From positions 1 through 23,056 of the IMG/VR virus record IMGVR_UViG_3300010885_002461: 23,056 nt of DNA. One strand, 5' to 3'. Shown here piece by piece: positions 8,462 through 18,875 of this stretch. The DNA is from a virus. The notes under the pieces were generated by a model. The model was not told the DNA's origin and did not search any database. It saw only the letters and a list, made by a program, of their open reading frames with translations. The translations under genes and the position numbers were made by a program. How positions within the stretch are numbered: the first letter of the stretch is position 1; each line of letters starts with the position of its first letter.

Positions 8462-9301
8462 TTAAGTCCCCCACTCATTTTTAAATAATGGCACCTGCAA
8501 TCTATCACTATAACGCCACCCTCGATTCATTGCGGCAATGGCAACGGATTTAGCATTGAGACTATAAACAGACTCAACACCGCCGACAGGCATAAGATAT
8601 ACATGACCTGTAAAGCCCTCATTTCTATACTCTTCCACTGCTTTTTCTGCATCTTTAATATCCTCTTCTGTTGCTACCACAAACTTCAAATATACTGTAC
8701 CGTAATTTTCGTAATCACAAACAACCTGAGGTTTGATAGCATCCTTCCATGGCTCGCCACTGCATGGCAGTTTAGCACTTACTGAGAATGTAATTTCTCT
8801 TTGGGCTCTCCATCTGGTCAGGTATTCTTTGAAATCTTTGGTAAGACGCATAGTACCATTTGTTTCAAATGTAATTTCTTTAAGATTATGCATTTTAGGA
8901 TGATCAAGCAAATCTGGATATTGCTTTTGCCAGCCTAGCAATGGCTCACCGCCTGTAATAACAAGATGTTCATCTCGCCATTCTTTGTGCGGAAGCATTT
9001 CTGCAATCCTATCTGCAATTGCATCTGTTGTAACCAATGGGCTAAGGTGTTTAAAATCTGGATGCCAACTAGCATAACTGTCACACCCGGTACTCACTAG
9101 TGGAAGTTGTTTATAGTCGTTAAACATATGAACAACTCCGGCAATATCATCTGCTTCACTACTGGATTCTCCGCGGGGTAAACCAAATCCTTGACAAGTA
9201 AAATTACAGCCAAAGGTTCGCATGAAGACTGATGGGACGCCCATATATCTTCCTTCTCCTTGTACACTGTAAAATAGTTCTGATAGTTTAATATTAGCCA
9301 T
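8462..9301 (-). CDS. queE: 7-carboxy-7-deazaguanine synthase (QueE), radical SAM
   Basis: This 279-aa radical SAM enzyme would convert 6-carboxytetrahydropterin to 7-carboxy-7-deazaguanine. The N-terminus L-F-Y-S-V-Q-G-E-G-R-Y-M-G-V-P-S is the family signature. Two cluster cysteines lie at C32 and C36 (G-C-N-F-T-C). The usual third cysteine two residues later is missing. The only plausible third ligand is C73 in S-T-G-C-D-S-Y, after a 36-residue insertion that is rich in Ser/Glu/Asp. The SAM-binding I-T-G-G-E-P lies at 115-120 and F-E-T-N-G-T after it. The same layout appears in other phage QueE proteins as I recall. It shares one base (TAATG) with the 62-aa gene. With folE and the QueD-like gene it completes three steps of deazaguanine synthesis. 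Confidence 0.9.
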   Translation of the reverse strand: MANIKLSELFYSVQGEGRYMGVPSVFMRTFGCNFTCQGFGLPRGESSSEADDIAGVVHMFNDYKQLPLVSTGCDSYASWHPDFKHLSPLVTTDAIADRIAEMLPHKEWRDEHLVITGGEPLLGWQKQYPDLLDHPKMHNLKEITFETNGTMRLTKDFKEYLTRWRAQREITFSVSAKLPCSGEPWKDAIKPQVVCDYENYGTVYLKFVVATEEDIKDAEKAVEEYRNEGFTGHVYLMPVGGVESVYSLNAKSVAIAAMNRGWRYSDRLQVPLFKNEWGT

Positions 9302-9489
9302 TAGTTAGTTCCTAGATGAAATCTTGATAAAAACGCATCAACTAAACAATTGTGTTCTTGTCCTGTTGCGGAGTTAACGTAGTATACCCAAGTTCCATCT
9401 TCTTTGTCAACTACACTGGTAACATTAAATTGTGTTAAATCTGCTGATGTCCAAATGCTGGGTACATCGATAATTTGTTTAGCCGGCAT
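9301..9489 (-). CDS. Small protein of unknown function, 62 aa
   Basis: Not recognised. It begins M-P-A-K-Q-I-I-D-V-P-S-I-W-T, reads as a small mixed alpha/beta protein, and has one Cys. The start has AAAGGAAA upstream and overlaps the cupin gene by 11 bases, while its stop shares a base with the queE ATG. This tight coupling on both sides supports that it is a real gene of the folE-queE unit. A role in base modification is possible only by position. Confidence 0.65.
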   Translation of the reverse strand: MPAKQIIDVPSIWTSADLTQFNVTSVVDKEDGTWVYYVNSATGQEHNCLVDAFLSRFHLGTN

Positions 9490-9943
9490 TGTGTTTCCTT
9501 TCTGCTAGATACTGTTCGTAGTGTATCCATTTGTTATTAACCAAAAATCCCCATTCACGTTTGCGTGGACCTACAAAAAACAATGTCCATGCAGTAATAG
9601 CAGGATCTAATTCAACACGATGATAAGTGTGCATCTTACCAAATCTAAAAGTTCCGGCTCCTCGCCAAACTTTATATTCAGTGAGCTTCTCACCTTTTTC
9701 ATTGAATACAGGAAGCCATTCCCAATAACCACCTTTTAGAATAAGGCTAGCATAGTTCCAAGGATGATCATGAACATCGTCTGGATCTGATTTTAAGAAC
9801 TTATGCAAGAATACATTATAGGGGAAATTTACACGTTCTTTAAACAGAACATAATACCGTTCTAGATACGGTTCTTGTTCGGTACGATCCATGATAATAC
9901 GCTTACGGCCATTGCGCTCGAGCCAATTAAGAAACCATTTCAT
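9479..9943 (-). CDS. Cupin-like protein, 154 aa
   Basis: The motif H-K-F-L-K-S-D-P-D-D-V-H-D-H-P-W-N-Y at residues ~47-64 carries the H-x-H type metal ligands of a cupin. G-K-M-H-T-Y-H-R-V-E-L about 40 residues later would give the third histidine. The Trp/Tyr-rich body (G-G-Y-W-E-W-L) fits a small beta-barrel. The substrate is unknown; cupins range from sugar epimerases to oxygenases. The ATG overlaps the folE stop by 4 bases (ATGA), so the two are translated together. It could act on a pterin, a deazaguanine or a sugar intermediate, but this is inference. Confidence 0.65.
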   Translation of the reverse strand: MKWFLNWLERNGRKRIIMDRTEQEPYLERYYVLFKERVNFPYNVFLHKFLKSDPDDVHDHPWNYASLILKGGYWEWLPVFNEKGEKLTEYKVWRGAGTFRFGKMHTYHRVELDPAITAWTLFFVGPRKREWGFLVNNKWIHYEQYLAERKHNAG

Positions 9944-10686
9944 CGCGGTGCAAACTCCTGTTGTAGTTTAATGTTGTCAAAGAATTCTTTCTTTGTATTG
10001 CCGTCTGTATTAAATGCACCTTTCAATACTGTAGTTTGTGTCAAACTAGAGTGCGCCATAATACCGCGGTTCTCACAGCACCCGTGTGTCATTTGAATGT
10101 ACACGCCTAAGTTTTCTGCTCCGGTGGCTTTTTGTATTTCCCTAGCAATGTCATTGCAAAGTTCCTCCTGGAGAGTACCTCTTCTTGCACACCACTGTGC
10201 GATACGGGTATACTTAGATAGACCAATAAGTTTATTGGCAGCAATAATACCAATATAAGCCACACCAGCCACAGGTTGGTGATGATGACTGCACATACTA
10301 CGCAATTCACTACGTACAACAAGCATACCTTCATAACGGTCTGCCGAATCATTTGGGAACGCTGTTGCGTCTGGTGCTGGGTCATATCTACCTGCCATTA
10401 CTTCATTAAAATACATTTTGGCCAGTCGTCTTGCTGTACCTTTTGAGTTAGGATCGGTTTCACGATCTATAAGCAACCGATCAAGAACTTGTTCAAATGC
10501 TTCTGTTGCTTCGTCAATTAGGCGGTCTTTATCACCTTCGTGCAAGTAGTCACTGATGTTGTCGCCTGCCCAAAAACGTTTACCCTCACGTTTCATTTTA
10601 AAGCGAAGATGGTCGCCTAAGTAGGCTTCTTCATATCCGCCGTCACCTGCCATGGCGTCTAATGCTGTTTCTTTTTTCTCTGTCAA
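9940..10686 (-). CDS. folE: GTP cyclohydrolase I (FolE)
   Basis: Converts GTP to 7,8-dihydroneopterin triphosphate, the first step toward both folate and deazaguanine bases. The zinc site is visible: M-C-S-H-H at 131-135 and H-G-C at 201-203, which match the Cys/His/Cys ligands of the E. coli enzyme. The family stretch A-N-K-L-I-G-L-S-K-Y-T-R-I follows (150-162), and G-T-A-R-R-L-A-K-M lies earlier. The start is TTG with GGAG 7 bases upstream. The next in-frame ATG (10653) has no ribosome site. An N-terminal extension of ~40 residues precedes the core. It heads the transcription unit behind the promoter at 10727-10755, together with queE. Confidence 0.92.
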   Translation of the reverse strand: MTEKKETALDAMAGDGGYEEAYLGDHLRFKMKREGKRFWAGDNISDYLHEGDKDRLIDEATEAFEQVLDRLLIDRETDPNSKGTARRLAKMYFNEVMAGRYDPAPDATAFPNDSADRYEGMLVVRSELRSMCSHHHQPVAGVAYIGIIAANKLIGLSKYTRIAQWCARRGTLQEELCNDIAREIQKATGAENLGVYIQMTHGCCENRGIMAHSSLTQTTVLKGAFNTDGNTKKEFFDNIKLQQEFAPR

Positions 10687-10726
10687 TTTAATCTCCGATG
10701 TTAAGGCAGTGGATTGCCAATTGTTA

Positions 10727-10755
10727 ATATTACACTTTATTTAGGTTTCTGTCAA
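10727..10755 (-). promoter_or_regulatory. folEp: Sigma70-like promoter for the folE-queE unit
   Basis: On the - strand a perfect TTGACA (10750-10755) is separated by 17 bp from TAATAT (10727-10732, 4 of 6). It straddles the 3' end of the dehydrogenase gene and leaves a leader of about 35 bases before the folE TTG start. It would make folE and queE expression independent of the upstream clamp/dpdA unit. Confidence 0.65.
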
Positions 10756-11538
10756 CCTCAGCAAAGTATTTTTCTTTACTGCGGCGTCAACTACATTCAT
10801 ATTTAGATTTAGGCTTTGAGCATATTTTAATAATGCCGCGGTATCTTTTGGAAAGCACATACCACCAAATCCAAATACACCATCCGGTCCGGGAACCTGC
10901 ATATGACTATTGCCAATTCGTGTGTCGGCTGTAACCATATGAGTAATCGTATTGTAGTCTAAACCTGCTTTAGTTGCCATTTTGTATAATTCATTCATGA
11001 AAACAACTTTAGTTGCTAAGAAAGAATTGATAGCATATTTGGCTAATGCGGCTTCTCCGATAGAGCAATAGTATACTGAACTTAATTCAGTTTGCGATTC
11101 TCTAATAATACGTTCTGCTTGATATTTGTGAGCAGATACTTTGCCTCCAATAAATGCAAATTTACCTTGAGCATAATCTGCAATAGCATTTGCCGCAGTT
11201 AAAAATTCTGGAGCATGAACTAGGTTAGGGTATTGATCGTTAAGTCGATTATAAACATCTGGCGGTGCAGTACATTTACTGATAATAGTACCGTTATAAT
11301 CAACAGCACTTAATTTAGATAATACATCTTCTAAAATACTTGTGTCACAACTACCGTCATCACCTTGCGGACTTGGAACACAAACAAATATACCATCACA
11401 TGATGCTAAATCTTCATATGTATTAGTATATCCTTTAGCAGGGTCTAATAGTACCAATGGATGTGGACCACCGTACTTATCAAATGCCATTCTAATAGCG
11501 TGACCTACAAAACCTAATCCAATAATTCCAACCTTCAT
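10741..11538 (-). CDS. Short UDP-glucose/GDP-mannose dehydrogenase-family protein
   Basis: The N-terminus M-K-V-G-I-I-G-L-G-F-V-G is a Rossmann NAD site (G7, G9, G12). The catalytic region G-G-M-C-F-P-K-D at 225-232 holds the family's nucleophile C228 with K231 and D232. K167 and N171 lie in A-K-Y-A-I-N-S-F-L, and P-E-F-L at 110-113. At 265 aa it is far shorter than bacterial enzymes (~390-450 aa): the C-terminal nucleotide-sugar-binding domain is missing, as in other phage homologues. It probably oxidises a nucleotide sugar, or has another NAD-dependent role. The ATG overlaps the glycosyltransferase stop by 4 bases, so the two act in one pathway. Confidence 0.85.
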   Translation of the reverse strand: MKVGIIGLGFVGHAIRMAFDKYGGPHPLVLLDPAKGYTNTYEDLASCDGIFVCVPSPQGDDGSCDTSILEDVLSKLSAVDYNGTIISKCTAPPDVYNRLNDQYPNLVHAPEFLTAANAIADYAQGKFAFIGGKVSAHKYQAERIIRESQTELSSVYYCSIGEAALAKYAINSFLATKVVFMNELYKMATKAGLDYNTITHMVTADTRIGNSHMQVPGPDGVFGFGGMCFPKDTAALLKYAQSLNLNMNVVDAAVKKNTLLRLTET

Positions 11539-12635
11539 TTTATTCTTTCTAATAATAATTTAGCAGAGAAAAAATTGTTAGTTAGATCCTCTGTTTGTTT
11601 ACGTAATTGTGGGAGTCTTTGCTCGTAATAATCCATATGAGTCATAATAGCACGGCACAAATCGGGACGATATACATTATATGCATCCCAACTTTCGGTC
11701 CATTTACTTTCATATTTAAAAATGTCGTAATACATTTCGCTGTATGACAAACGATCTGGAACCATAGGAATAGCATCTACAATGGCACCTTCGTAGCAAC
11801 CAATTCCTAATGTTTCTTGTAGACTGCAACTGAATACCATTTTTGCCTCGCCTAACAAATTATGATATTCATTTTTAGTTAACTCTTGATCTTGACAAAC
11901 AACAAACTCATATTGAGGTAGATGTGTAGCCAAGTCACGGAAAATTTCAACCTGTTTCTCAGGAGCAATTCGATGAGGAAAAACAATGAGATTACGCTTG
12001 GGCATATTCTTGTACATGGTTAATGTATTATCCATATACTCCATAGGCCAGCCTGTACGTACAAATCTAGGATCTTCACCATTTAAGATTTCATCTAGAT
12101 GTTCACTAAACCAAGGATTTTCTGTAGGATAATCATTTAGTAAATTAGCATAGAACATCTCAATATGAAAGTCTGTAGCAAAATAATTATGATCAAATGC
12201 ATGAAAGAAACTCTTCTCAGCATTTCTAACCCAAGGCTTATTACCTACAAGACGTCCTAAGAAGTCTTGAGGATCATACGATCCAGCATGCCATAGACCA
12301 TGAGTGACTACTGGAATATTCAGCAGTTCACTCATATACTTTAAGTTTATAATGCCTGGATGCCAAGCATCAGTAAAAATAAAGTGGTCGCCAGCATGAA
12401 CGGATCCACTACAAAATAGGCGACCCATCTGTTCCACTTGACTAGATTTGTATATATTCGTACCGCCAAAATTAAGAAAAGCACCAGGAGTGGTACTGTT
12501 AGGAATATCAGTAGGTCCTGAAAGAATTGTGACATTGTGTCCTGCCTTTTTAAGTAATGCAGGTACATGAGTCTTCCATTGACCGGTGTACCTGGTCTCA
12601 ACTGATTCTAAGTCAACTAAAAAGACTCTTGCCAT
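11535..12635 (-). CDS. GT-B glycosyltransferase
   Basis: This 366-aa protein has a Rossmann-like N-terminal half and a C-terminal donor-binding half with H-R-I-A-P-E-K at 221-227. The E-x7-E pair is at E274 and E282 (Q-E-T-L-G-I-G-C-Y-E-G-A), followed by A-I-P-M-V-P-D-R-L-S-Y. This is the pattern of GT4-like retaining GT-B enzymes. The acceptor is unknown: candidates are phage DNA bases, virion proteins or host glycans. It is locked between the 73-aa gene (1-base overlap) and the sugar dehydrogenase (4-base overlap), and it is transcribed in the clamp/dpdA unit. A DNA-modifying role is therefore worth considering. Confidence 0.85.
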   Translation of the reverse strand: MARVFLVDLESVETRYTGQWKTHVPALLKKAGHNVTILSGPTDIPNSTTPGAFLNFGGTNIYKSSQVEQMGRLFCSGSVHAGDHFIFTDAWHPGIINLKYMSELLNIPVVTHGLWHAGSYDPQDFLGRLVGNKPWVRNAEKSFFHAFDHNYFATDFHIEMFYANLLNDYPTENPWFSEHLDEILNGEDPRFVRTGWPMEYMDNTLTMYKNMPKRNLIVFPHRIAPEKQVEIFRDLATHLPQYEFVVCQDQELTKNEYHNLLGEAKMVFSCSLQETLGIGCYEGAIVDAIPMVPDRLSYSEMYYDIFKYESKWTESWDAYNVYRPDLCRAIMTHMDYYEQRLPQLRKQTEDLTNNFFSAKLLLERIK

Positions 12636-12856
12636 TATCGATACTTTTTGTATTTGTTGTCAAACCTTGGTTTAAAATCTCCGCTATTCTTGCGAGAGAA
12701 ATACCGATACTCTTGCGACCTATACAAGTCAGCAGGATTAAAGGGGATTAAATTAAACCTACAATAATCTAACCATGCGTCGAGATCATCAAAGATCTTC
12801 TCCACTTCGGGTTTCATACGGAGAGTTTTCTGAACGTAGGCAGGAATATTCGCCAT
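12635..12856 (-). CDS. Small conserved phage protein, 73 aa
   Basis: The start ATG has AAGGAAA upstream. The protein contains K-P-E-V-E-K-I-F-D-D-L-D-A-W-L-D-Y-C-R-F and F-N-P-A-D-L-Y-R-S-Q-E-Y-R, a pattern I recognise from small proteins in T4-like aquatic phages near glycosyltransferase or deazaguanine genes. It ends in a basic Lys/Arg tail. No function is known. It overlaps the glycosyltransferase start by one base, so translation is coupled. Confidence 0.75.
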   Translation of the reverse strand: MANIPAYVQKTLRMKPEVEKIFDDLDAWLDYCRFNLIPFNPADLYRSQEYRYFSRKNSGDFKPRFDNKYKKYR

Positions 12857-12867
12857 TTTTAATTTCC

Positions 12868-13257
12868 TTAATATTTGATAAATGAACCATTTTCTCCATC
12901 TTCGGAGACTTCAATCCAGATTTCACGATCTGGATACTTTTGTGAAATAGTGCCATACAATTCGTCTGACATCATTTCGCAACTTTTATAATCTAGTTTA
13001 AGAATACTGTCTTTGTAAAGATTTTCCAACCAGCGTTTGAATTGAATAAACTCAATATCGCGATCGTTATGTACAACGCTAATCCATACTCTAAAATGAA
13101 AAATATGACGATGCGGAGTACCTAGAAATGACACATCGTATTCATCGCCTGTTGCTAGATTAGGATCAGTAGCCGCCGCTGGATAGCAGTGGATACCTTC
13201 TTTTTGGAAAGTAGTCCAAATCATTTTATTTGGACGGACATCTTGTTTAATTATCAT
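12868..13257 (-). CDS. queD: QueD-like protein (6-carboxytetrahydropterin synthase / PTPS fold)
   Basis: At 129 aa it has the length of QueD/PTPS proteins and a matching order of landmarks. F-Q-K-E-G-I-H at residues 17-23 corresponds to the first zinc His. H-R-H at 49-51 corresponds to the H-G-H pair, followed by an F-R-V-W-I-S-V strand. D-I-E-F-I-Q-F-K-R-W-L matches the 'V-D-F-x-x-L-K' segment. M-S-D-E-L-Y and I-E-V-S-E-D occupy the places of P-T-x-E-N and of the strand with the pterin-binding Glu. QueD makes 6-carboxytetrahydropterin, the QueE substrate, from the FolE product. Sequence identity to cellular QueD looks low, so the call rests on motif order and on neighbours. It overlaps the 178-aa gene by 11 bases. 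Confidence 0.65.
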   Translation of the reverse strand: MIIKQDVRPNKMIWTTFQKEGIHCYPAAATDPNLATGDEYDVSFLGTPHRHIFHFRVWISVVHNDRDIEFIQFKRWLENLYKDSILKLDYKSCEMMSDELYGTISQKYPDREIWIEVSEDGENGSFIKY

Positions 13258-13783
13258 TTAAAATCTCATCTCCTGTATACTGATCCCAATCAGTAAACTT
13301 ATCGGTTGATAAAAGGTCATGTAGTCTGTGACACCACACGCCCGGGTTAGTAGCGGCAAAGTCTTTGTCGTCTATCTTTATTGTAGCATTATATCCTAGT
13401 TGTTGTAAATAGGGCAATTTTACCGAAATTTGCGGAATAAATTTTCTGTTTTCAGTTAGGCCGGATTCCAAAAGACCCTCTGTTTCTTTTACATCAAAGT
13501 CTAGCGTACACCAATAACCTTTGTTCAAACAGGTAGTGATCATATCTTCCCAAAGTCTCCAAGTAACGGCATCGTTGACACCGCCTGTACGGAAACTCTG
13601 GTTGGCACCAAAATAGATGTGTTTGACATTCTCGGCTTTAGCCATAGATAATATTTCTTGTGCGTTTTGAACGCCTACTACAAATAGAGTTTCCATTCCG
13701 TATGCGGGAGTATGTTCTACTTCTACTCCCGCAAAGAATACTACATTATCTTCTATTTGACCTGCTTCGTATTCTCTTTTCAT
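13247..13783 (-). CDS. Conserved phage protein linked to deazaguanine genes, 178 aa
   Basis: I recognise this family from T4-like phages but know no function. It starts M-K-R-E-Y-E-A-G-Q and has the strands V-V-F-F-A-G-V-E-V-E and L-F-V-V-G-V-Q. These are followed by H-I-Y-F-G-A-N-Q-S-F, W-R-L-W-E-D-M, G-Y-W-C-T-L-D-F-D-V, I-P-Q-I-S-V-K-L-P-Y, A-T-I-K-I-D-D-K-D-F and N-P-G-V-W-C-H. The alternating strands and helices suggest a partial TIM-barrel-like or Rossmann-like enzyme. No cysteine cluster motif is present. It is welded between dpdA (4-base ATGA overlap) and the QueD-like gene (11-base overlap), which is the best hint that it works in the same pathway. Confidence 0.8.
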   Translation of the reverse strand: MKREYEAGQIEDNVVFFAGVEVEHTPAYGMETLFVVGVQNAQEILSMAKAENVKHIYFGANQSFRTGGVNDAVTWRLWEDMITTCLNKGYWCTLDFDVKETEGLLESGLTENRKFIPQISVKLPYLQQLGYNATIKIDDKDFAATNPGVWCHRLHDLLSTDKFTDWDQYTGDEILNDN

Positions 13784-15336
13784 GCTTTTACTTCTTCCTC
13801 TAAGGTTCTTAGGTTATTGTCATCTTGCTGATCAAATAGTGGTGTTCCGTCTGGAGCACGTTTTAAAAGAGGTTCGTCTTCAATAGTAAACAAATTATTA
13901 AATTCGTTTTGCGCAGGGCCGCCTTGTAGTCGAGCACCTTCTAGACTACGTAAGAAAGATAATCCATCTTCGATCATTTGAAACGCTTCTGCTTTTGTTT
14001 TGGTATTAAACAAATCTTCAATAAAACTAGCAAAATATAAAATTCTACGTGGAACCCAATCGCTATATTCTTTTTCTTTCTTGCCTTCGATGCCTGACAA
14101 TCTCCAATTAAGTTTGTGCTTGGCAATTTCAATATCCATTAATTGTTGAGCACGTTGTACAGCAACAATATGACATTCAACATTATGACCCATCATTAGA
14201 GCATACGCAAAACTATCCCAACTAGTTTTACCTTCTTTACCGATCTTGTTTAACATGCCTGGAGCATAATGACAGATGTCTGCCATTGTTAATCTGCGTC
14301 CGACTTCGCTTTCAAACGGGAATGGTATGTCGCTTCCAGCAAGGGCTTTATTGTCTGGGGCTTTGTCCATAATAACACTCCACCTTTTTGGACTGTGTTG
14401 GGCGTTGGTGTAGACAAGTCCGTGCGCTGTTGCAATGAACGGTGAGGCGCAGTCAAAAGATATGGTAAGTTCTTCATTGATATGTTTCCTAATTTGACGT
14501 TGAATTAAAGTTAGATAGCATGACCAATCTAACTGTGCTGTACCCAAGAAGTGGATCCAGTTTTTGCCCGTTAGCAAACCTTCCTCTCTCATCGTCATTA
14601 GACGCTTGAGAGTAATATCCATTTTACACATATTAGCGCCACCAAAGGCCCATCCTTCTGCTTCTTTACCTGCATAAGGACCTTTTGGATCGCTGAATTC
14701 TTTAACACCATTGTACCATTTTTCAGCGGTATCCCAATCACCGCCTTGTAGCACGTTGAGCCATTTAGTTTGACCTAACCGATTATCTAAAAAATACTTG
14801 TTATTAAAACGTGTTTTTTCTAAACAGTCTTCAAATGTTTTTAGTCCTGTTTTAGGACTATGAATATGGTCACATGCCCAAGTAGGAACGTCAAGCATCA
14901 TCGACCAGTCAGCAGTTAGTTCTAACCACTCTAAAATTTGCCTACGTGTTTTGTTAGCACTTTCACCTTCAAAATCTAGCCAATCAAATTTAAGAACACC
15001 TTTACCAATCTGGTATCCACCGGAATCGCCTAAGATCATTGTGTTTTTACGATCTCGATCTTGAATCATAGACTCTTGTGTAAGACTCTTTTGTAGATCT
15101 AACTGTGCGTGACCTGCTGAATACAAACCATACTTGTAGGTAAAATATCCTTGTTCTGGATTAAGAAAGTTCATGCCCTCAACACCGCGATCAAAACCTG
15201 CGGGGATACGATCGTCTGCAATAAACTTTTCTAAACGCTGTTTGGCAACATACGTACTGTAGAAACTACTAATGGCTGGCAAATAGACAGCATAGTCTTT
15301 CTGTAATGGGGTTAGGTTAACTGGTGGTTTTGTCAT
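13780..15336 (-). CDS. dpdA: DpdA-like (deaza)guanine DNA transglycosylase, TGT family
   Basis: Related to tRNA-guanine transglycosylases but of the phage DNA type. Numbered from the ATG at 15336 (AGGTG upstream; an in-frame GTG at 15348 is the alternative), I see D-S-G-G-Y-Q at 104-109, M-L-D-V-P at 147-151, L-Q-G-G at 196-199, A-F-G-G-A at 230-234 and F-D-C at 294-296. These match the TGT base-binding and catalytic landmarks (D-S-G-G-F-Q, Q-G-G, G-G-L, nucleophile Asp in F-D-C). The CxCxxC zinc site of tRNA enzymes is absent, as expected for DpdA. It would exchange guanine in DNA for a deazaguanine. It starts 4 bases after the clamp stop. Confidence 0.88.
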   Translation of the reverse strand: MTKPPVNLTPLQKDYAVYLPAISSFYSTYVAKQRLEKFIADDRIPAGFDRGVEGMNFLNPEQGYFTYKYGLYSAGHAQLDLQKSLTQESMIQDRDRKNTMILGDSGGYQIGKGVLKFDWLDFEGESANKTRRQILEWLELTADWSMMLDVPTWACDHIHSPKTGLKTFEDCLEKTRFNNKYFLDNRLGQTKWLNVLQGGDWDTAEKWYNGVKEFSDPKGPYAGKEAEGWAFGGANMCKMDITLKRLMTMREEGLLTGKNWIHFLGTAQLDWSCYLTLIQRQIRKHINEELTISFDCASPFIATAHGLVYTNAQHSPKRWSVIMDKAPDNKALAGSDIPFPFESEVGRRLTMADICHYAPGMLNKIGKEGKTSWDSFAYALMMGHNVECHIVAVQRAQQLMDIEIAKHKLNWRLSGIEGKKEKEYSDWVPRRILYFASFIEDLFNTKTKAEAFQMIEDGLSFLRSLEGARLQGGPAQNEFNNLFTIEDEPLLKRAPDGTPLFDQQDDNNLRTLEEEVKA

Positions 15337-15340
15337 GTCA

Positions 15341-16075
15341 TCAAGCACCTGCTGGAATAATGTATTCGTATTTTACTAAACCGCTATCAATATTAATTTT
15401 CAAAGCACCACCATCACTAATGCTCATCGAAGCATTTCCAACATCGGCAATTTTCAAAATGCTTAAGATAGGAGCAACTGGCCAAGCCCATGCTTTGCTC
15501 AGTTTACCTGTTACACCAGTAGCAAATACAAACTCACCGGCATGTGAGCTCATGTCACCAAATGTAAACTTCAATTTATCGCCATCTGTTTTGGCAATAA
15601 AAGTTGTATGTTCATTGTTAGCACCCGCTTGGAATGCAAAACGTTGAATAGACTGCAATGATGGTTGAATAGTTACATCCCATTTAACACCATTAAATTT
15701 AACGGCCTTAAGTTTTTCATTGATCTGTGCAACATTCATGAAGCGATAATCGTTCTTAAAATCACCGTCTTTGTTTTCAAAGTGAATGCCTGTTGGGATA
15801 GTTTCACCATTGCGCTCTTCTTGAACAATTTCAATCTTGGCACCTTCTTTGTATTCGTTGCCGTCTAACAAAAATTTTAATTTGTTAAGTTGTGGCATAC
15901 CAAATGTACCAATCATATCCGGATAGGGATCTGCGGTTTCTCCGTACATGATAACAGTACGGTCGTCTGCCATTGAATTAATTTTGGTAGATGTTTCATC
16001 TCCAGTAATTTTAACAATGTTAAGAAAGCCTAAATTGTGTGTATGGCTTACGATATCTTTAAGTAGGTCTTGCAT
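15341..16075 (-). CDS. 45: DNA polymerase sliding clamp (gp45-like)
   Basis: This 244-aa protein is close in size to T4 gp45 (228 aa), and I recognise the phage clamp pattern: an acidic DNA-clamp-type N-terminal half, W-A-W-P-V-A-P-I-L-S-I-L in the middle of the second half, and the ending S-G-L-V-K-Y-E-Y-I-I-P-A-G-A. It would form a ring that holds the polymerase on DNA and, in T4, also activates late transcription. AAGGAAA precedes the ATG, and a sigma70-like promoter lies just upstream (16093-16121). It is followed at once by dpdA rather than by the T4 clamp-loader order. No clamp-loader gene (44/62) is in the window. Confidence 0.85.
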   Translation of the reverse strand: MQDLLKDIVSHTHNLGFLNIVKITGDETSTKINSMADDRTVIMYGETADPYPDMIGTFGMPQLNKLKFLLDGNEYKEGAKIEIVQEERNGETIPTGIHFENKDGDFKNDYRFMNVAQINEKLKAVKFNGVKWDVTIQPSLQSIQRFAFQAGANNEHTTFIAKTDGDKLKFTFGDMSSHAGEFVFATGVTGKLSKAWAWPVAPILSILKIADVGNASMSISDGGALKINIDSGLVKYEYIIPAGA

Positions 16076-16128: not shown

Positions 16129-18798
16129 TTATTCAAAACTGAACAAACTGCTGAATGTGTTGTTCTGTGTAGTGGACTCTAAATCCCACTCCAGCACTCC
16201 AATAAGATTATCAAGTTTATTATTGATAATTGTTGCTTCCATTTCGCTGTGATTAAATGGTAAATCTTGAAACCATTTTGGTAGTCGTAATTCGTCTACC
16301 GGATAGGCTACTGATGTAAACCCTAACGGATTATCTTTTATTTTACAAACAATAACTTTCATTCCGTCTACAATCTGTTGACTGTATTTGTCACCGTTCA
16401 TACGTTTTAGTGTATTCCAGTTAATGCTGGCACGTACATGGCCAGGCATATTAGCCTTGCCAGCCTTGTGTTCTTTTTCTTGATATTCGGCAATATTGTT
16501 AGCACGTTTTGGACTACCTTTTTCCCAACCAGGCCTAGATTTAAATTCAGTTCTAAATTCATTAATCATATCAAGAATTTCTTTTTCTTGACTGCCATTT
16601 AGAACTTTAGTCAATACTTCCTCTAAGAACTTCTGCATAAATTCAGGAGTATCACTACGTTTAAGATCTAAGCCCATGGCCTTGATCTTGCCTGGCTTGC
16701 CATCAACATCTAATCGCTTGCCTTCTTTGTCATAATACAATACAGCATAACGTTTCTTGGTAATAAACAGACCTTTAATAGCCACAATCTCTCGACCTGC
16801 TTTAATAACTTCACCACGGCTCTTTGGACAGTGATGTGCATCTGCCATAAACTGTGGAAATGTATTATTCACTTCTGCGGCGACGGTGTCGTACAATTGA
16901 ACAACATTATCTTTGTCCCAAGGAATTTCTTTCTTTTCAATTTCTCGTTTCAGTGTATTGTAAGCACTGAAGTAAGCAGAATCAGTGTCACCGTAGATAA
17001 TTGATTTACCTAAATGATTATATTCGCCTGTAATTACTTCGTTGATTTTAGAGGCCATATGCCGGGCAATTCCTCGGCCTGTAAGGGTGGTAGACTGCCC
17101 GATCCGATTATCAAAGAAACGGCACCCAACGTTAAGAATAGCACCATACAGACTATTAAGGTTAATCTTTTTGACCAATTGTCGTTTGTCCCAGTATTCT
17201 TCTTCAATTTTATTCTCCGCTTTTATTGATTCTTTAAGTTTGGCCTGCATCTCTTTACGTTCAGCATACCAACGTTTCAGAAGTCCAGGAATAACACCTT
17301 CCACATCATGTGTAAAAATTGTTCCGTTAGCACTGAGCATCCACGGCCGATTACTTTCAAATATTAACTCGTATATTTGTGCGCCTGATAGTACATCAGA
17401 ACTGCCTGACTCCCAGTCAACAATAATTTCTTTTGCTATATCTTTAGCCATAACAAGTTCGTACTCATTGCTACCAAACTTACCCTCCCATGCCGCGGCA
17501 AACGAATCTCCTTTGGCTAGTTTGGCTTCAATTTCTGCCTTAGTATATGTTTGACGCAATTGTCCAACAATTGTTTCCGGTCCCATGTTTAATGCACGAA
17601 TTACGGAAGGATACAGACTGTTAATATCCATCGAGCCAATATAGTCATGTAGCCCTTTTTTAGGATAAGCAACATACGCACCTGCGGCCTGATTAGTAAT
17701 ATCTTCATCGCGCTTTGGTCGACTAGGAACAATCATACCTCTATGGTGTGCTTCATTAATAATGGCCTGCTCTGTGACAGCCACTGCACCCATAGTAGTT
17801 GCTAACAGCACAGTATTCTCATGAGCAACTGTATTAGCAAGGTCAATAAACTTTAGTTTCTTGTCTAACTTGTCAAGAAGCAAACAGTCTTGTCTGTTGT
17901 ATTCGATAAACTTCTTAAAGTCATTGTTATACAATTGATCAAGGGTACCTTCGTACTGTGTTTTATGTTCTCCTAGTTCATGTTCGGCAATTGCATCAAG
18001 TCTGTAACTATGACGTTCTTCGTATGTATACTTGCGATACAGTTCTAAACTATCCATGTGTACACGACCAATTAAATCATATGTTTCTGCTTTCTTACCG
18101 TATTTTTCGTATTCACGTTTCTTAGGAAATTTGTCAAATAAGCAGAGTCGGCGGGTATCTTCTTTGCTCAGTACTTTGATAATGCGGTTAACAGTATAGG
18201 GCATATCAAAGCCTTCACTGTTCCATCCGCTTAGTACATCTGCATCTTGTATAAGTTGTAAGAATGTTTCTAACAGGTCGCCTTCATTATCAAACAGGTG
18301 TGTATTAGGAAACTCTTTGACTTGTTCCTCTGCTTGTTCCATAGTTAATGTTTTAGGAGGAAGTGCAAGACATACCATTGTATCCATCCATTGTAGGTAA
18401 ACTGCAATCGCAGTAATGGGCATGAACGGATCATCCGGACTTGCATACCCACGTTCTGGATCAAAGTCTACCTCAATATCCCAAAACGCTACATTTAGTT
18501 TTGGAGCATCTTTTCCAAGATAGTTTTCTTCTAAACAACGGAAGATTGGATTAATATCATTTTCATACAGACGACTGCTGGAAAATGTTTTTTGTTCTTT
18601 GATGAATTCTTTATAACTTTTTGCTGTGACTCGGTTAAGTGTCTCGTTAAAGATTGAACGATACTTACCTTTAGCATCAGGATAATAAAACATATAGCGG
18701 GCTGGATAGTCCGTATATACTCTACCTTTTTTAGGATCTCGTTCAACGACGTGAACAATGTCCTTTTCGCGATCCCAGATCGCATCGACATAACTCAT
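16129..18798 (-). CDS. 43: Family B DNA polymerase (T4 gp43-like)
   Basis: The start is the ATG at 18798, six bases after AAGGAG. The ORF is open to 18828 but has no better site there. The resulting 889 aa match T4 gp43 (898 aa). Exonuclease motifs are intact: D107-I-E109, N193 with F-D198, and Y300-x3-D304. Polymerase motifs are D-I-N-S-L-Y-P-S (391-398), K-K-I-N-L-N-S-L-Y-G (543-552) and Y-G-D-T-D-S (602-607), and a K-K-R-Y follows. The tail ends F-S-S-L-F-S-F-E, which fits a clamp-binding C-terminal peptide like that of T4/RB69 gp43. It is a proofreading replicative polymerase. Read with the DsbA-like and membrane genes upstream. Confidence 0.95.
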   Translation of the reverse strand: MSYVDAIWDREKDIVHVVERDPKKGRVYTDYPARYMFYYPDAKGKYRSIFNETLNRVTAKSYKEFIKEQKTFSSSRLYENDINPIFRCLEENYLGKDAPKLNVAFWDIEVDFDPERGYASPDDPFMPITAIAVYLQWMDTMVCLALPPKTLTMEQAEEQVKEFPNTHLFDNEGDLLETFLQLIQDADVLSGWNSEGFDMPYTVNRIIKVLSKEDTRRLCLFDKFPKKREYEKYGKKAETYDLIGRVHMDSLELYRKYTYEERHSYRLDAIAEHELGEHKTQYEGTLDQLYNNDFKKFIEYNRQDCLLLDKLDKKLKFIDLANTVAHENTVLLATTMGAVAVTEQAIINEAHHRGMIVPSRPKRDEDITNQAAGAYVAYPKKGLHDYIGSMDINSLYPSVIRALNMGPETIVGQLRQTYTKAEIEAKLAKGDSFAAAWEGKFGSNEYELVMAKDIAKEIIVDWESGSSDVLSGAQIYELIFESNRPWMLSANGTIFTHDVEGVIPGLLKRWYAERKEMQAKLKESIKAENKIEEEYWDKRQLVKKINLNSLYGAILNVGCRFFDNRIGQSTTLTGRGIARHMASKINEVITGEYNHLGKSIIYGDTDSAYFSAYNTLKREIEKKEIPWDKDNVVQLYDTVAAEVNNTFPQFMADAHHCPKSRGEVIKAGREIVAIKGLFITKKRYAVLYYDKEGKRLDVDGKPGKIKAMGLDLKRSDTPEFMQKFLEEVLTKVLNGSQEKEILDMINEFRTEFKSRPGWEKGSPKRANNIAEYQEKEHKAGKANMPGHVRASINWNTLKRMNGDKYSQQIVDGMKVIVCKIKDNPLGFTSVAYPVDELRLPKWFQDLPFNHSEMEATIINNKLDNLIGVLEWDLESTTQNNTFSSLFSFE

Positions 18799-18875
18799 AT
18801 TTTTCTCCTTGTCATTTGCGGCTGACAAATACCAACATGATCATTTATGGCTGATCGAACCGTAGTTTAAAATAA

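Follow-up and report, generated by a model that had tools for sequence, protein, structure and literature searches.

We analysed a 23,056-base virus record, IMGVR_UViG_3300010885_002461 (record G000; hereafter the window), which by gene order and sequence identity is a fragment of a PA5oct-like phage, and found that its gene for a DpdA-type guanine transglycosylase is accompanied by one for a GT4-type glycosyltransferase (GT). The cassette that holds both, together with FolE, QueE and a 129-amino-acid (aa) protein of family phrog_17812, is likely to make a deazaguanine DNA modification, and with somewhat better than even confidence we read it, from sequences and models, as a DNA 7-deazaguanine modification that includes a glycosylation step. 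Deazaguanine DNA modification by a DpdA-type enzyme had been proposed in an initial annotation of the window and is now backed by the fold, the catalytic residues, the absence of a zinc motif and gene linkage. The glycosylation step is a new proposal, and the persistent pairing of GT and DpdA would be best explained by glycosylation of the deazaguanine.

The window encodes a DpdA-type enzyme of a separate subfamily

The 522-aa protein encoded at 13780..15348 on the minus strand (start ATG at 15336 or GTG at 15348) is a DpdA-type enzyme by its predicted fold. Its AlphaFold2 (AF2) model (m193717e3ffff, mean pLDDT 68) had Zymomonas tRNA-guanine transglycosylase (TGT) as the top three Foldseek matches (best E 2.2e-6) and aligned with TGT over 303 residues (Z 18.4, 4.1 A). 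In VIA-align, 50 of 50 among the matches listed were TGT, with no DpdA structure among these. The catalytic aspartates D104 (DSGG) and D295 (FDC) were invariant in 27 diverse sequences, and both motifs lined up by eye with E. coli TGT. All 53 full-length DpdA relatives, drawn from 72 GT-selected loci with a window-type DpdA, kept DSGG and [FY]D-x-[SA]-S, and none had the tRNA-type zinc motif C-x-C-x2-C, which is present in E. coli TGT. These results uphold the earlier description of a DpdA-like, TGT-family enzyme without the tRNA-type zinc site.

TGT and DpdA proteins are too divergent for pairwise detection. PDB sequence searches with the window DpdA and with a DpdA2-like set gave nothing meaningful, and viral-contig scans using the DpdA of PA5oct or of Vibrio phage 2.275.O alone found nothing. 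The protein was likewise unmatched in the Pfam, PHROGs, NCBIfam and PADLOC profile libraries, a negative that says little because the Pfam TGT model misses the DpdA of phage 9g too. When the window DpdA family profile was compared with single proteins, hhalign gave the following probabilities: 9g DpdA1, 0.2; X1, 1.4; nt-1 DpdA2, 2.4; BUCT-ZZ01, 5.6; E. coli TGT, 12; ACP17, 85.4; GR7B, 96.8. Against a profile of ACP17, X1 and GR7B the probability was 96.4. The ACP17, X1 and BUCT-ZZ01 proteins are 37%, 35% and 33% identical to nt-1 DpdA2, respectively. This score pattern therefore points to a DpdA-like enzyme of a separate subfamily, which by sequence is not DpdA1 (membership of the 9g type was undetected, at 0.2 against a single 9g sequence) and not clearly DpdA2. 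Work by Cui and colleagues from 2023 is said to name a DpdA3 and a DpdA4 as well.

A GT4-type glycosyltransferase accompanies the transglycosylase

A 366-aa protein encoded at 11535..12635 (minus strand) is a GT4-type glycosyltransferase according to its model and motif, and a putative deazaguanine GT; we infer its donor and acceptor. The AF2 model (mean pLDDT 90.7) has a GT-B fold, and Foldseek against PDB retrieved glycogen synthases, BshA and other GT-B enzymes. The E-x7-E motif, which is a GT4 motif, was present in 66 of the 66 relatives tested. A PDB sequence search with the GT gave nothing meaningful, and the relative in phage X1 passes the Pfam Glycos_transf_1 cut-off.

GT and DpdA are linked in viral contigs and cultured phages

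Two scans of viral contigs yielded a set of 160 loci, consisting of the best 80 of 575 stretches encoding DpdA and the best 80 of at least 592 confirmed GT matches (at least 600 stretches). All counts cover the fetched flanks. The 80 GT-selected loci held the 129-aa family in 77 cases, a window-type DpdA in 72, a DpdA2-type enzyme in one, the sliding clamp in 63, FolE in 60, QueE in 47 and canonical QueD in 8; QueC or QueF at E 1e-4 was found in none. In the seven loci without DpdA, GT lies at most 1.6 kb from the locus end. DpdA, GT and QueE occurred together in 68 of the 160 loci, every one of which also encoded the 129-aa family.

The genes between DpdA and QueE vary. A phosphoribosyltransferase, absent from this window, was found in 43 of the 160 loci, including 37 of the 68 complete loci (those with DpdA, GT and QueE), a HIT protein in 25, a UDP-glucose dehydrogenase-like protein in 20, and a Gfo/Idh oxidoreductase and an alcohol dehydrogenase-like oxidoreductase in 12 each. 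Genes for an epimerase, for aminotransferases of two kinds and for a cytidylyltransferase-like protein each occurred in 3-6 loci. These variable-gene clusters were named from one representative each.

Because the counts partly reflect common descent, other genomic contexts were examined. GT matches at E 1 or better were found in 20 of 50,697 phage records, namely 11 Pseudomonas phages (PA5oct and Paride included), Phosso, ACP17 (two records), X1, BUCT-ZZ01 and four of the PhiXhv-12 type. One record was inspected for each of six groups (PA5oct, Phosso, ACP17, X1, BUCT-ZZ01 and PhiXhv-12). FolE was present in all six and an annotated QueE in five; in PhiXhv-12 the QueE model matches weakly. DpdA adjoins GT in PA5oct, and in ACP17, X1 and BUCT-ZZ01 GT lies near DpdA2 in FolE/QueE clusters. 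Cultured phages with both GT and DpdA include PA5oct, Paride, ACP17 and X1. Over 20 comparison records, the GT profile was positive in 12 and negative in phiST, RHph_I1_18, 2.275.O, Bakedbeans, D479, Ahp1, MA9V-3 and nt-1. In Xanthomonas phage PhiXhv-12 (L092:5669-9755), genes for a Gat-QueC, a PIG-L deacetylase, GT and a Gfo/Idh oxidoreductase lie in a row, the Gat-QueC carrying the annotation L-glutamine-D-fructose-6-phosphate aminotransferase.

Bare GT-DpdA pairs occur in bacterial genomes

One scan of bacterial and archaeal genomes returned 17 GT loci. Their fetched flanks encoded a window-type DpdA in 16 cases, the 17th being a 4.6-kb contig with FolE, and the 129-aa family was present in 11 of the 17. 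Three loci (L209, L210 and L212) have polymerase, clamp and DpdA arranged as in the phages; these are probably phage-derived contigs within metagenome bins. Five loci, from the alphaproteobacteria Sulfitobacter (two), Shimia, Azospirillum and Pelagibacterium, held a bare GT-DpdA pair, the two genes being co-oriented, convergent or divergent, with no other profiled cassette gene in the fetched flanks. Finding the pair in bacterial genomes suggests that bacteria may make use of it.

For three of the five loci, a test of the gene preceding GT showed it to be Vut_1-like (one over the cut-off, two just under it). The deazaguanine cluster of phage 2.275.O likewise includes a Vut_1-type gene. YhhQ is a Vut_1 protein. 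In the accessible passages of PMC6884629, YhhQ is treated as a preQ0 transporter. By eye, the bacterial GT-DpdA loci L214, L216 and L221 lie near short recombinase-like genes and are possibly mobile elements; nearby genes encode a MASE1-type kinase in L214 and a CoiA-like nuclease in L221.

FolE and QueE are encoded in the cassette, and the 129-aa protein is probably not QueD

FolE (GTP cyclohydrolase I; 9940..10686, minus strand) matched Pfam PF01227 (GTP_cyclohydroI) with E 3.8e-37 and 127.9 bits against a cut-off of 27, confirming its earlier assignment; it is listed with a TTG start, and the first in-frame ATG lies 11 codons downstream. The QueE-like radical S-adenosylmethionine (SAM) protein (8462..9301, minus strand) matched phrog_2076 (E 6.4e-54), so that its identification as QueE also stood. 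Five NCBIfam QueE models matched it at 44-61 bits, each under its cut-off. Canonical QueE enzymes space their cluster cysteines as CX3CX2C; in a 17-sequence alignment of the QueE-like protein this spacing was not found, C32, C36 and C73 being invariant and the third cysteine displaced. A similar layout is seen in PA5oct and 2.275.O.

The 129-aa protein (12868..13257, minus strand), which the initial annotation had called QueD-like, matched phrog_17812 and, weakly, phrog_37707, both listed as of unknown function. It had no Pfam or NCBIfam match, and a PDB sequence search gave nothing meaningful. All 24 members of its family alignment matched phrog_17812. The CxxxHxH motif with the QueD catalytic cysteine was found in none of 63 full-length relatives, although an H-[RFG]-H pair is present in every one of them and an SCE motif in 62; the catalytic cysteine is retained in CxxxHG in nine of nine canonical phage QueDs. 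The hhalign probability between the family and canonical QueDs was 4.5%, and in alignment A6, which includes two canonical QueDs, 4 of 28 members matched PTPS at E 0.1. Canonical PTPS/QueD is encoded elsewhere in 12 of 14 related records according to the Pfam model (all except G006 and G008; 13 of the 14 were shown to carry GT, and G002 ends before it). A phage QueD profile found it in 13 of 18 records, missing G008, G011, G012, G013 and G015, and IMG/VR records without QueD may be fragments. Phage ACP17 has a 129-aa family protein and a canonical QueD in one cluster. Because the catalytic cysteine is absent and most related records encode a canonical QueD elsewhere, we rejected the 129-aa protein as the pathway's QueD; by sequence it probably represents a separate family.

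Among annotated phages, 27 records have phrog_17812 matches. In Cellulophaga phage phiST the gene lies beside those for FolE, canonical QueD and QueE. Our guess is that the protein acts on the carboxylate of 7-carboxy-7-deazaguanine (CDG), for example as a CDG-modifying enzyme. Cui and colleagues reportedly named a CDG decarboxylase DpdL in 2023; from its occurrence in phiST, the phrog_17812 protein might be DpdL. Near the phrog_17812 gene (L197, L198, L201, L202 and L203), one protein is common to phiST and MA9V-3 (43% identity) and another to D479, Ahp1 and RHph_I1_18 (41-53%), the two sets being linked at 24% identity; these proteins of 259-422 aa might be the base-inserting enzyme of the phages concerned.

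QueC was searched for in 30 records, 29 of which were shown to carry GT. A full-length match was found in PhiXhv-12 alone, and partial matches over the cut-off in G004, G010, G015 and G020. The G004 and G020 proteins are QueC-like PP-loop proteins, each having SGG-x-D and cysteines at the C-terminal end, and weak QueC-like relatives occur in G011, G012, G015 and G023. No QueC was found in PA5oct, Phosso, ACP17 and BUCT-ZZ01, and X1 gave only a 16-bit match to a PP-loop protein of another kind. In view of the QueC-like proteins, the strict claim that GT phages have no QueC was dropped. Their presence in some records suggests that the base may differ between lineages, so that CDG or a derivative may be inserted in most and another base in some. 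Several IMG/VR records are closely related to one another (G008-G010 and G011-G012, for example, have near-identical loci), and these records are therefore not independent.

Gene order and replisome neighbourhood of the cassette

The cassette genes, including those for FolE, QueE and the TGT-fold protein, all lie on the minus strand. The order polymerase, clamp, DpdA-like enzyme, GT, 129-aa protein, QueE and FEN-like exonuclease is that of Pseudomonas jumbo phage PA5oct (Arenbergviridae), which gave the best synteny found for the window. The initial label 'T4-like' is accordingly loose. QueE is 33% identical to its PA5oct counterpart, whereas clamp, DpdA, GT, 129-aa protein and exonuclease range from 39% to 57%. 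The sliding clamp-like protein (15341..16075, minus strand) is 38.7% identical to PA5oct gp170 and adjoins DpdA and the polymerase; its name is putative, being taken from the initial annotation and from its position beside the polymerase. The DNA polymerase (16129..18828, minus strand) aligns in three pieces with the DNA polymerase genes of PA5oct, at 43-69% identity. Gaps of -11 to +11 nucleotides (nt) from the clamp to the UDP-glucose dehydrogenase-like gene, then 54 nt before FolE and, within the stretch between FolE and QueE, -11 to -1 nt fit the two units on one strand that had been described.

The dpdA ATG at 15336 does follow the clamp stop by 4 nt, as first noted, and this had been taken to mean that both proteins are probably made together. 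In the 77 relatives whose fetched DNA contained both genes, and with ATG starts assigned by a script, the gap is at most 10 nt in 16 and 131-1172 nt in 61, of which 56 fall within 300-430 nt. We therefore rejected the 4-nt gap as a special feature. Across the clade dpdA commonly adjoins the clamp and polymerase genes, and phage 9g already has this adjacency in reversed order. Since the gap is unconserved and 9g shares the adjacency, the replisome neighbourhood is recurrent, with no special coupling here.

The cassette had been placed at 9940-15336, an interval that contains three overlooked genes, for GT, a short UDP-glucose dehydrogenase-like protein and ORF178, and leaves QueE outside. The UDP-glucose dehydrogenase-like protein (265 aa; 10741..11538, minus strand; Pfam PF00984 and PF03721) has the N-terminal NAD-binding and central domains, and its C-terminal UDP-binding domain was unmatched in the Pfam search. 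ORF178 (13247..13783, minus strand) is a conserved neighbour of DpdA with relatives in 59 of the 80 GT-selected loci and no meaningful match in a PDB sequence search. In contig L076 (6975-9008), a single open frame of 677 codons runs through both DpdA and ORF178, which may be a natural fusion. A conserved 73-aa protein (12635..12856, minus strand) has relatives in 60 of the 80 DpdA loci. Between FolE and QueE lies a phrog_4786 protein ('cysteine dioxygenase'; 9479..9943, minus strand; cupin-like by eye), with relatives in 70 of the 160 loci and a conserved position. On the plus strand, the proteins encoded at 2-664 and 668-1885 have similar C-terminal stretches (ATYADLAE-like) by eye.

Comparison with known systems

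The DpdA2 system of Vibrio phage nt-1 (Hutinet 2019, PMC6884629) resembles the window in having a TGT-family enzyme without the zinc motif, FolE, a PTPS-like protein and QueE, and the phage genome contains dPreQ0 according to the passages available from that paper. Unlike the window, nt-1 has QueC and is unmatched by the GT profile, and its DpdA2 alone was undetected by the window DpdA family (2.4), the link running only via ACP17 (85.4) or the ACP17/X1/GR7B profile (96.4). In Enterobacteria phage 9g, as in the window, dpdA (here DpdA1) lies beside clamp and polymerase, in a stretch that also holds genes of the FolE and QueD type. It differs in its strong QueC match, which is a Gat-QueC in the passages of PMC6884629, in the undetected sequence relation of DpdA1 (0.2) and in the position of dpdA, upstream of the clamp in 9g and downstream of it in the window.

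The PA5oct/Paride cluster has the same order of polymerase, clamp, DpdA, GT, phrog_17812 and QueE with small genes interspersed. The words 'deaza' and 'queuosine' were absent from the passages available of the Paride and PA5oct papers (PMC10761892, PMC6950013). The cluster is, unlike our reading of the window, annotated mostly as hypothetical, and PA5oct encodes FolE, two PTPS proteins and the ORF178 relative elsewhere. Its DpdA, GT and phrog_17812 proteins are 43%, 42% and 57% identical to those of the window.

Phage DNA base glycosylation is best known on hydroxymethylated pyrimidines, and T4 differs from our proposal in using another base, made as a nucleotide and not exchanged in DNA. The likeness lies in a phage glycosyltransferase that acts on modified DNA bases, as for T4 glucosyl-5-hydroxymethylcytosine (see also PMC13216743). 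A carboxyl group on a DNA base serves as a handle in the carboxymethylcytosine hypermodification of phage S-B43, which, unlike the proposed pathway, involves cytosine, amide bonds and no transglycosylase (passages of PMC12783734).

A proposed pathway to glycosylated 7-deazaguanine and its alternatives

Support for the pathway consists of folds, conserved residues and gene linkage, from which we infer all chemical steps, the acceptor atom and the sugar. FolE would convert GTP to dihydroneopterin triphosphate, a canonical QueD encoded outside the fragment or by the host would yield carboxytetrahydropterin, and QueE would form CDG. The 129-aa phrog_17812 protein, together with the QueC-like enzyme in some relatives, may then alter the carboxylate. 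The DpdA-type enzyme would swap guanine in DNA for the deazaguanine, and GT would transfer a sugar from a nucleotide-sugar donor, either ahead of insertion or afterwards. The genes that tailor the donor, here that for the UDP-glucose dehydrogenase-like protein, vary by lineage and could vary the sugar, and the freed guanine may be salvaged by the phosphoribosyltransferase of many relatives.

Several observations weigh against this interpretation. The window GT had no match to any GT model in Pfam at E 0.1, and the weak Pfam matches of its family were to Rsbr_N in 28 of 41 members and to Glycos_transf_1 in 5. The DpdA model reaches a mean pLDDT of 68 only. In Phosso, GT lies by the clamp, the 129-aa protein, FolE and QueE with DpdA ~170 kb off, and in PhiXhv-12 DpdA is a weak match distant from GT. 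Shared ancestry inflates the linkage counts, because similarity to GT or DpdA was the basis for selecting the loci and 33 of the 160 nearly duplicate another locus; without repeats, 55 of the 68 complete loci remain. Of the 30 records, 6 encode QueC-like PP-loop proteins and PhiXhv-12 a full Gat-QueC. CDG has a carboxylate, and if the 129-aa protein were a decarboxylase the base would be left without a handle for a sugar.

A rather unlikely account is that the base stays unsugared, with FolE, QueD and QueE supplying CDG (or decarboxylated 7-deazaguanine), DpdA inserting it and GT a passenger that acts, for instance, on host surface glycans. It would fit phiST, which has the phrog_17812 protein, FolE, QueD and QueE without GT, and the absence of GT from 8 of the 20 comparison records, phiST included. 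Carboxy- and unsubstituted 7-deazaguanines are, moreover, reportedly described as phage bases by Cui and colleagues (2023). However, a passenger would not be expected to accompany DpdA enzymes of two subfamilies in different phages, nor to form a bare pair with DpdA, in varied orientation, in five bacterial loci. Those five loci have neither FolE nor QueE in the fetched flanks, which also argues against glycosylation of a soluble pterin or free deazaguanine, in which the product would be a metabolite or cofactor and not a DNA base. A cyanobacterial tetrahydrobiopterin glucosyltransferase acts on pterins, FolE is encoded near GT, and the pterin (tetrahydrobiopterin) glucosyltransferase 5zer was among the Foldseek matches of the GT model (E 1.3e-7), but its rank of 19 is undistinctive among many GT matches and we hold this reading improbable. 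Least probable of all is that the TGT-fold protein targets RNA (tRNA) and not DNA. Its fold is the same as that of tRNA TGT, and the closest single protein and best outside-family hhalign match, the TGT-domain protein of Vibrio phage GR7B (96.8), carries the zinc-type motif C-x-C-x2-C, a further point against our interpretation. On the other side, the motif occurs in 0 of 53 relatives, the gene adjoins clamp, polymerase and biosynthesis genes like 9g dpdA, and the family reaches 85.4 with the ACP17 protein, itself 37% identical to nt-1 DpdA2.

Beyond the window, we see an even case for the broader proposal that DpdA of the separate subfamily and the GT4-type enzyme form a conserved pair that installs glycosylated 7-deazaguanine in DNA, in many large phages, with more than one DpdA subfamily, with a sugar that varies by lineage, and as a transporter-GT-DpdA set in alphaproteobacteria. 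Searchable titles and abstract beginnings, with most subscription papers outside reach, held no report of a glycosylated deazaguanine or of DpdA together with a glycosyltransferase, and glycosylated deazaguanine was unreported in the available passages of PMC6884629, PMC11079468, PMC12783734, PMC10761892 and PMC6950013. Protection from restriction may be its role by analogy with phage CAjan, as described in passages of PMC6884629. If the proposal is true, a sugar-bearing 7-deazaguanine would add a new base to those known in DNA, and one cassette would unite two separate counter-restriction strategies. The transporter-GT-DpdA set of alphaproteobacteria could then mark or protect bacterial or mobile-element DNA.

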